This document shows, piece after piece, positions 1,043-2,433 of a stretch of 64,000 nt of DNA (position 1 is the first letter of the stretch; every line of letters begins with the position of its first letter). Under the pieces are notes generated by a model that was not told the origin of the DNA, did no database searches, and was given only the letters and a program-made list of their open reading frames with translations. The translations under genes and the position numbers were made by a program. The stretch is from contig NZ_JACSWB010000147.1 in assembly GCF_016888135.1 (NCBI RefSeq), forward strand, positions 1 to 64,000. Reading direction: 5' to 3'. Source of the DNA: Leptolyngbya sp. CCY15150 (GTDB lineage Bacteria > Cyanobacteriota > Cyanobacteriia > RECH01).

Positions 1043-1129
1043 GGCTAACGTTCTGGTTGAGCGGCTGTAAGTAACCTTTGCATCCACACCGAGATCTTGT
1101 AGAAGTCCGCTCCAACCAGGTTGTTATGC
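1043..1129 (-). other. attC recombination site ending the DUF4760 cassette
   Basis: On the minus strand the 87 bp run from R'' GCATAAC (1129-1123) to R' GTTAGCC (1049-1043). The inner arms CTGGTTGGAGCGG and CCGCTCAACCAG pair almost perfectly and leave one extra G unpaired on one strand. This matches the extrahelical-base feature by which integron integrases choose the bottom strand of attC. The TAA stop of the DUF4760-like gene (1126-1124) sits inside the R'' box, a well-known trait of integron cassettes. The crossover would fall after the G at 1049, which begins the next cassette. Confidence 0.85.
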
Positions 1130-1738
1130 CGCATTCTTCCACCGATGATACATTATTTCCAAATTTGAATATATGGAACCTCTTTGTGATTTTGCCCTCC
1201 TCTCATTGATCCAGAGTTCAAACAGCAAATAGTAATCCATGACAATACCTTGATAAAACTCACGAAGAACTTCCTCGTCTAAAAGTTTTTTGTTCGTCAA
1301 TATTGCTATTTCTTCAAAAAAGTTAAATGTATTGACTAATGCTGCTTCTTTGCCATTCCCAGTATTTAGAGCAACATTAAGGGCTTTGAGGCGCTCCTCT
1401 ACTGGGAGATTAGATAGTATTTTTGCAAGTTCAACAGTAACTGCTTTCGTCTCAGAAAAATCAGGAGAATTCCATCGCTCAGTTAGTTCAATTGCTCTAG
1501 TCAACTTTGAAAATTCGACATTTTGGGTTAAACCCTGAGCAATATAAACAACACTGATGACCGTTGCTGTAGAAGAAAGAACCGTGGCTGTAAAAGTTAG
1601 CAACTCTCGCTCATTCGGGAAACGCCAGAAAAGAGTTATTAAAACCACAGAAATAAATAGAGCAACAATACCAACCCAAACAACAACTCCAGCTTTGATA
1701 GCAGAGAAATCAATGGCTCTGTTTCTACGACTTTTCAT
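1124..1738 (-). CDS. DUF4760-like membrane protein carried in an integron cassette
   Basis: A 204-residue protein with two predicted membrane helices near the N-terminus (about residues 16-38 and 46-68), followed by a helical cytoplasmic domain. The C-terminal half (ERWNSPDF, NFFEEIAILTNKKLLDEE, then a final YSNLEIMYHRWK) has the pattern I associate with DUF4760 proteins. Their function is unknown to me. It is the first gene left of the integrase remnant, reads away from it, and its stop codon lies in the R'' box of the attC at 1043-1129. By position it would be the first cassette of the integron. The ATG at 1738 is the only reasonable start. Confidence 0.7.
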   Translation of the reverse strand: MKSRRNRAIDFSAIKAGVVVWVGIVALFISVVLITLFWRFPNERELLTFTATVLSSTATVISVVYIAQGLTQNVEFSKLTRAIELTERWNSPDFSETKAVTVELAKILSNLPVEERLKALNVALNTGNGKEAALVNTFNFFEEIAILTNKKLLDEEVLREFYQGIVMDYYLLFELWINERRAKSQRGSIYSNLEIMYHRWKNAA

Positions 1739-1819: not shown

Positions 1820-1879
1820 GACCTTATATGCCAAGAGATAACTTTCATGCTACCGCCCTCACCGAAGACTTGCGGCATA

Positions 1880-2150
1880 ACTATTGTTTATACTGAACTT
1901 CCCCCCTCTGATCGGCATAACACCTCCCATAGGGATGATTAGCCAGACCACAACTGAATATCACCTCCTCCAGAGAGGATTAGGCTGAAAATTGTCTGTA
2001 TAACCACCCTACTTGGGGTGTTATACAGATCTTAATCAGTCTATACACCTATATAGGGGTGATTATGCCGATGAGATGCTTGATAACACCCCTATTAGGG
2101 TAGTTATGCATACCGAGATCCGTATAGTACGCTCATTTCAGGGTGTTATG
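1880..2150. repeat. array of palindromes spaced every 41-42 bp between integrase and cassettes
   Basis: At least five imperfect dyads are centred near 1929, 1971, 2012, 2053 and 2095, with degenerate copies near 1888 and 2137. The general form is TAAC-ACCC(C)-TAT-(G)GGGT-GTTA, often flanked by GC/TGC and GC bases. The best copy (1996-2027) has CTGTATAAC and GTTATACAG as outer arms. The dyads are about 23-33 bp long with 8-18 bp between them, and the period is close to four helical turns. Individual copies differ at many bases while keeping pairing. The ends (GCATAAC / GTTATGC) resemble attC R boxes, but the dyads are far too short to be ordinary attC sites. No CRISPR-like unique spacers are present. 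Confidence 0.75.
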
Positions 2151-2204
2151 CGGCTATCTTCAGACAATCTTCACGATCAGCCCAGGATCAACGCATGTAG
2201 TATT

Positions 2205-2220
2205 TAGTACATAAGTTCTA
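2205..2220 (+). promoter_or_regulatory. LexA (SOS) box upstream of the integrase remnant
   Basis: TAGTACATAAGTTCTA matches the cyanobacterial LexA-box consensus RGTACNNNDGTWCB (as I recall it) at every defined position (2206-2219). It ends 18 bp before the ATG of the integrase remnant and abuts the ribosome-binding region. Integron integrase genes are under LexA control in several bacteria, so the placement is biologically sensible. Confidence 0.65.
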
Positions 2221-2238
2221 TCTGGAGATTCCTGGCTT

Positions 2239-2433
2239 ATGATCGATCCTCGACCCAGAAAACTCTTGGATCAAGTCCGCGATGCGATTCGGCTGAAGCA
2301 TTACTCCTATCGAACAGAGCAGACCTATGTCGGTTGGATTCGGCGCTACATCATTTTTCACAACAAGACCCATCCCAAGGATATGGGTGCCCCTGAAGTT
2401 GAATCTGTTCTAACCTATCTGGCAGTCGATTGA
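2239..2433 (+). pseudogene. integron integrase (IntI-like), truncated N-terminal fragment
   Basis: The 64 codons give an N-terminal SAM-like core-binding domain typical of integron integrases. Visible parts are KLLDQVRDAIRLKHYS, YRTEQTYVGWIRRYIIFHN and GAPEVESVLTYLAVD. A full IntI has about 320 residues with a catalytic Arg-His-Arg-Tyr domain, which is missing. Homology appears to continue for about six codons after the TGA (QVSTST, compare the family's VAAST), so the TGA probably arose from a CGA codon. Beyond about 2451 the similarity ends, and queC starts at 2572, so the remainder was deleted. A GGAG lies about 11 bp before the ATG. The gene reads away from the cassettes, the normal layout of an integron. 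Confidence 0.85.

Follow-up and report, generated by a model that had tools for sequence, protein, structure and literature searches.

What is the array of short, regularly spaced palindromes that lies between an integron integrase gene and its gene cassettes in the window, i.e. the whole stretch of DNA analysed here (64 kb from the start of contig C147)? A sequence-only reading had described dyads recurring every 41-42 bp at this place and had considered integrase docking, an operator of a cassette promoter and a new kind of attI as possible explanations.

The attI core and the array of half-sites

The integrase gene in the window is dead. Its remnant matches positions 1-64 of TIGR02249 with 65.6 bits and ends at an in-frame TGA, and the copy of the array in the window is therefore a relic. 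Short fossils of the intI N-terminus also occur elsewhere in the same genome (L024:1466-1641 and L027:1477-1603, at C207 and C147:107890, respectively, of G000). Thirteen half-sites of the type GTTAKVCNGAA, two of which form the attI core, extend from attI to the dead integrase gene. The features of the locus are:

1043..1126, minus strand: probable attC closing the first cassette, inverted repeat TAACGTTCTGGTTG / CAACCAGGTTGTTA
1124..1738, minus strand: first gene cassette ORF, DUF4760 protein (Pfam PF15956, E=3.5e-19)
1870..1881, minus strand: attI R half-site (GTTATGCCGCAA), matrix score 12.1
1887..1898, plus strand: attI L half-site (TTTATACTGAAC), diverging from R at 8 bp like the core of attI1
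1910..1921, minus strand: array half-site 1 (GTTATGCCGATC), score 10.8
1938..1949, plus strand: array half-site 2 (ATTAGCCAGACC), score 9.7
1979..1990, plus strand: array half-site 3 (ATTAGGCTGAAA), score 13.8
1993..2004, minus strand: array half-site 4 (GTTATACAGACA), score 13.2
2020..2031, plus strand: array half-site 5 (GTTATACAGATC), score 11.2
2034..2045, minus strand: array half-site 6 (TATAGACTGATT), score 7.2
2062..2073, plus strand: array half-site 7 (ATTATGCCGATG), score 11.0
2076..2087, minus strand: array half-site 8 (GTTATCAAGCAT), score 6.5
2103..2114, plus strand: array half-site 9 (GTTATGCATACC), score 6.9
2117..2128, minus strand: array half-site 10 (ACTATACGGATC), score 6.7
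2145..2156, plus strand: array half-site 11 (GTTATGCGGCTA), end of the lattice, score 11.6
2157..2238, no strand: leader from the array to the integrase gene, spacer-like in its evolution
2239..2433, plus strand: intI remnant, N-terminal 64 residues of an integron integrase followed by a stop (PF13495, E=2.9e-17)

Several properties identify the left end of the array as an attI. The R half-site (minus strand, from 1870) and the L half-site (plus strand, from 1887) are inversely oriented and diverge at 8 bp, in agreement with the approximately 8 bp expected of such a core. The intI remnant adjoins at 2239, and a cassette ORF and attC-like arms lie leftward; the outer arms of the probable attC, with boundaries set by eye, comprise 1046-1059 and 1113-1126. 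The insertion point of cassettes is at 1875-1881, where cassette sequence begins and conservation between copies ends at the edge of the R half-site. Crossover should take place after the G of GTT, base 1881. In an alignment of 17 copies of this DNA, TAACTATTGTTTAT was conserved in most of the copies reaching the junction and variable beyond it. Conservation extended through AAC (1879-1881) and was followed by a different GTTRRRY-like end in each of these copies, as is characteristic of the crossover point of an integron.

From the core onwards the orientation of the half-sites alternates, with convergent neighbors at 22-23 bp and divergent neighbors at 18-19 bp, resulting in a repeat of 41-42 bp on each strand. 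Plus-strand sites start at 1938, 1979, 2020, 2062, 2103 and 2145 (spacing 41, 41, 42, 41 and 42 bp), and the lattice spans about 285 bp. Dyad centers lie near 1971-1972, 2012, 2052.5, 2095 and 2136.5; the dyads at the left end are weaker, and the minus-strand site due near 1961, after array half-site 2, is degenerate. An exact-pattern search for the perfect dyad returned no match because the units are degenerate, and Tandem Repeats Finder did not detect the array at a score of 30.

Within the window alone, the strength of the dyads exceeded chance only modestly, as 7 of 500 dinucleotide shuffles attained the summed score. Because of this weak dyad-only statistic, a second test used a half-site matrix derived from the arrays of other genomes, the window being excluded. 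With this matrix, matches were most concentrated in the 300-bp segment 1861-2160, which contained 13 of them compared with at most 6 elsewhere in the 64 kb (mean 1.7). The lattice formed a chain of 12 sites, as against three or fewer anywhere else in the window, and nine geometric links, a number reached in none of 100 shuffles (shuffle mean 0.10). The dyads at 41-42 bp between integrase and cassettes are thus confirmed, and as a lattice they stand far above chance. The natural unit of the array is the half-site and not the dyad.

The leader evolves like the spacers, with a majority-base frequency of 0.765 compared with 0.850 at the key half-site positions. At 2190-2215 it contains an imperfect palindrome upstream of intI, GTAGTATTTAGTAC, which is conserved among the copies in the genus and present in few other integrons. 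This palindrome could be an SOS-type operator; as a LexA-type operator it was dropped, because it was found in only 3 of 117 cases and is not general.

Relation to attI1 and other recombination sites

For comparison with class 1 integrons, a matrix was built strictly from 603 half-sites that lie in the arrays outside the core and was scanned over the attI1 region (L219:199-358), in which the L and R boxes were taken from text and DR1 and DR2 were placed according to the published site. The four best matches in attI1 were DR1, DR2, R and L. None of 2000 column-permuted matrices recovered all four sites, the best recovering three of them in eight cases. This stricter design, with sites beyond L and permuted columns, was adopted because the best attI1 score of an earlier matrix including the core sites had been attained by 86 of 1000 shuffles. 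These four regions of attI1 are the ones bound by IntI1 (PMC12901181; PMC3518468). In attI1, R and L diverge at 8 bp, L and DR1 converge at 24 bp and DR1 and DR2 are 19 bp apart, and this shared spacing together with the four-site match indicates that the cyanobacterial array continues the plan of attI1.

The two sites have in common an R-L core whose halves diverge at 8 bp and, between L and intI, accessory half-sites that share the motif of the core (GTTAYGNAGCAG in attI1). However, attI1, which belongs to the best-studied integron, has only two accessory sites in direct orientation and measures about 65 bp as a whole, whereas the cyanobacterial form consists of chains of up to 15 sites of alternating orientation. 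The proposals of integrase docking and of a new kind of attI find support in an array that begins at the attI core and keeps the register of the L box, and in a half-site motif that picks out all four IntI1-binding sites. The array would belong to attI with accessory integrase sites, not to a new category.

Other recombination sites are less similar. The attIA of Vibrio cholerae and other repeat-free attI sites share with the array the place between intI and cassettes and the AAC crossover signature, but attI of the attIA type lack DR-like repeats (PMC8946536), and no lattice was found in 27 gammaproteobacterial integrons. The attI2 of class 2 integrons, whose structure is undefined in the literature, has a similarly long interval of about 311 bp from intI2 to the crossover; no lattice was found in the class 2-like locus L221. 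In phage lambda attP, an example of the accessory-site arrays of tyrosine recombinases, extra recombinase sites outside the core, the arm sites, build a directional complex, and this is the likeness to the present array. The lambda arm sites are contacted by a dedicated N-terminal domain and are unlike the core sites, while the cyanobacterial array and its core share one motif.

The array might instead be an operator, through which a regulator of the host or of the integron acts on the cassette promoter or on intI independently of the integrase. It does sit between two divergent transcription units, and repeated operators on a single face of the helix are common. LexA control of intI, known elsewhere (PMC3108266), also counts for this explanation. 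It offers no account, however, of a motif that finds in attI1 the four sites bound by IntI1, core R and L included, or of the attI L box itself often opening the lattice, as it does in 34 of the long arrays surveyed below. In addition, there was no sigma-70-type promoter match in 1850-2300, which is weak evidence, and nothing in our results points to an operator of the cassette promoter in particular. Hence we regard an operator as improbable.

Occurrence among integrons and dispersed copies

The sequence-only reading had proposed a search of other cyanobacterial genomes. Among 390 sampled, 125 contained an integrase above the family cut-off, and a recount after removal of 23 duplicate loci was based on 97 cyanobacterial, 47 Chloroflexota and 33 Proteobacteria integrons. 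A lattice of at least five sites between attI and intI was present in 66 of the 97 non-redundant cyanobacterial integrons, with a maximum of 15 sites, so that the array is general in cyanobacterial integrons and not specific to one strain. Lattices in Chloroflexota were shorter, with at least five sites in 5 and at least three sites in 23 of the 47 integrons. None of the 33 Proteobacteria integrons had five or more sites (maximum 2) with a matrix whose training set was cyanobacterial apart from a few Chloroflexota and which could miss a proteobacterial array of another motif; a motif-free repeat test gave one positive among 27 gammaproteobacterial loci. The difference between Cyanobacteria and Proteobacteria had a Fisher p of 2e-13, that between Cyanobacteria and Chloroflexota one of 3e-11.

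Control regions farther upstream of the same loci were at background. Averaged over 89 loci, palindrome autocorrelation before intI peaked at 20-21, 40-41, 63 and 82-84 bp and was flat in shuffles, and sequence identity before intI recurred in steps of about 10 bp. The letters of the half-site vary from integron to integron (TTATGCAGAA, TTAGACAGAA, TTAGGCGGAA, TTATCCAGCA and others) while the geometry is common to them: convergent 22-23 bp, divergent 18-19 bp and a period of 40-42 bp. Plasmid pB of Kovacikia minuta CCNUW1, NZ_CP083584, is an example with both an intact intI and an array (L102). About a third of the cyanobacterial integrons have no long lattice, and the lattice is therefore not required everywhere. 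Loci L105, L112, L118, L126, L135 and L136, from the small-genome family f2, have no lattice despite an intact intI; this family seems to have lost the lattice or never had one.

Two further loci were conspicuous in the survey. A proteobacterial MAG (SXND01000079.1, L195) carries a strong alternating array with a period of about 40 bp, 330 bp before intI (z=10), the half-site of which is wholly different (GTCGTCAAGC): the architecture is the same and the motif unrelated. In the Chloroflexota locus L264, an 11-bp tandem repeat (ACATTCGTTG...) occupies the position of the array, 57-145 bp before intI.

DNA resembling attI and the array, whole or in part, is found at no fewer than a dozen places in the window's genome and at many places in two further species of its genus. 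Among these copies, the longer ones are 72-84% alike, and no intact intI was found in the three genomes. Copies in the window's genome (L002-L010) lie on contigs C292, C124, C122, C208, C172, C218, C157 and C123; those of the other two genomes, G002 and G003, are loci L029-L048. Mostly without intI and each joined to a different cassette-side sequence, these elements are orphan attI platforms. At one of these loci (L034:1-1780, on contig C181 of G002), a cassette and attC separate two tandem copies of array and attI, which lie about 1.37 kb from each other. Both arrays are interrupted in the same region, but not by the same insert, and one of the two inserts resembles a small palindromic insertion element.

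Widespread occurrence of the array in unrelated places, which the sequence-only reading had named as evidence against its view, was thus encountered only superficially, since many copies elsewhere in the window's genome have the attI core and stop at a cassette-type junction. Among the dispersed copies the key positions of the half-site were the more conserved ones (0.850 versus 0.800 and 0.773, p=1.5e-4), and of 40 shifted lattices a single one, displaced by 1 bp, equaled the conservation of the true lattice.

A selfish or decaying tandem repeat that has no function and has spread with integron heads would explain why the element is multi-copy in the genus, mostly without intI and with longer copies so alike, and why intI is dead at the copy in the window. 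We nevertheless consider it very unlikely, because the same lattice recurs with different sequences beside intact intI across the class and because key positions are conserved above spacers. Least credible of all is a row of short attC-like hairpins or of stem-loops of a cassette-leader RNA, folding as single strands, for although the TAAC...GTTA ends of the dyads resemble attC outer boxes and the palindromes return every 41 bp, any two inverted half-sites that share a consensus will resemble a dyad, the arms in the window are short and imperfect, and partners do not covary at variable positions.

The last point rests on 76 arrays, in which the likeness within dyads at variable positions was 0.431 for convergent pairs compared with 0.446 for shuffled partners taken from other dyads within one array, and 0.508 compared with 0.483 for divergent pairs, a slight excess attained by 21 of 1000 permutations. 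Partners are hardly more alike than shuffled ones, which argues against attC-like or RNA stems, and the earlier statement that the unit diverges while keeping its pairing finds no support as compensation. The pairing-maintained imperfect palindrome of an attC (R''-L''...L'-R') is likewise absent, the arms being too short. The resemblance of the dyad ends to attC R boxes, pointed out in the same reading, is real, since all of these are IntI-type half-sites; an identity with short attC hairpins is not.

A putative docking lattice for the integrase

Taken together, these results make it likely that the array is an extended attI, with accessory IntI half-sites following one another in register to make up a long docking lattice on one face of the DNA. 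Binding of IntI to the array, and the effect of that binding, are inferred. The putative integrase half-sites would run from the R-L core, where cutting occurs, toward intI, the side on which attI1 has DR1 and DR2. Since orientation alternates about every two helical turns, integrase monomers would come to lie on a single face of the helix and might form dimers across the convergent pairs. Although similar to the core, divergent pairs are one helical turn longer (18-19 versus 8-10 bp) and for this reason should bind integrase without serving as crossover sites. In this way the array could concentrate integrase beside a single cuttable site, and the resulting large nucleoprotein complex may favor attI x attC insertion. 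IntI is known to recognize double-stranded attI by its sequence and to bind cooperatively (PMC4792948; PMC2668188), and DR1 and DR2 are dispensable for attI1 x attI1 recombination, favor attI1 x attC and have been proposed to act as topological filters (PMC8946536). By analogy with their small-scale role, the lattice would stabilize the complex that captures attC. Extending over the interval between intI and cassettes, the array may also dampen or tune transcription.

More tentatively, cyanobacterial integrons may use a large and ordered lattice in which up to about 15 integrase monomers share one face of the DNA, with the crossover at its end and the other pairs blocked by the extra turn, a docking platform with one cuttable end that would differ from the four-site attI1 and the bare attIA and possibly also work in trans at dispersed attI.

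No earlier description of such arrays, and no binding or recombination assay of a cyanobacterial IntI, was found in the literature searched. A lack of knowledge on how attI is recognized has been stated in the literature (PMC4792948). The half-site is now precisely defined as TTAKVCNGA, an attI type found across the class provides a rule for locating attI and the crossover point in cyanobacteria, and the role of DR1 and DR2 becomes testable through the addition or removal of lattice units. Our findings suggest a longer design, ancestral or parallel, to which class 1 attI1 is related as a short form, with Chloroflexota in between. Given a row of up to about 15 putative sites in most of the integrons examined, gene capture probably proceeds via a large assembly of integrase and DNA.
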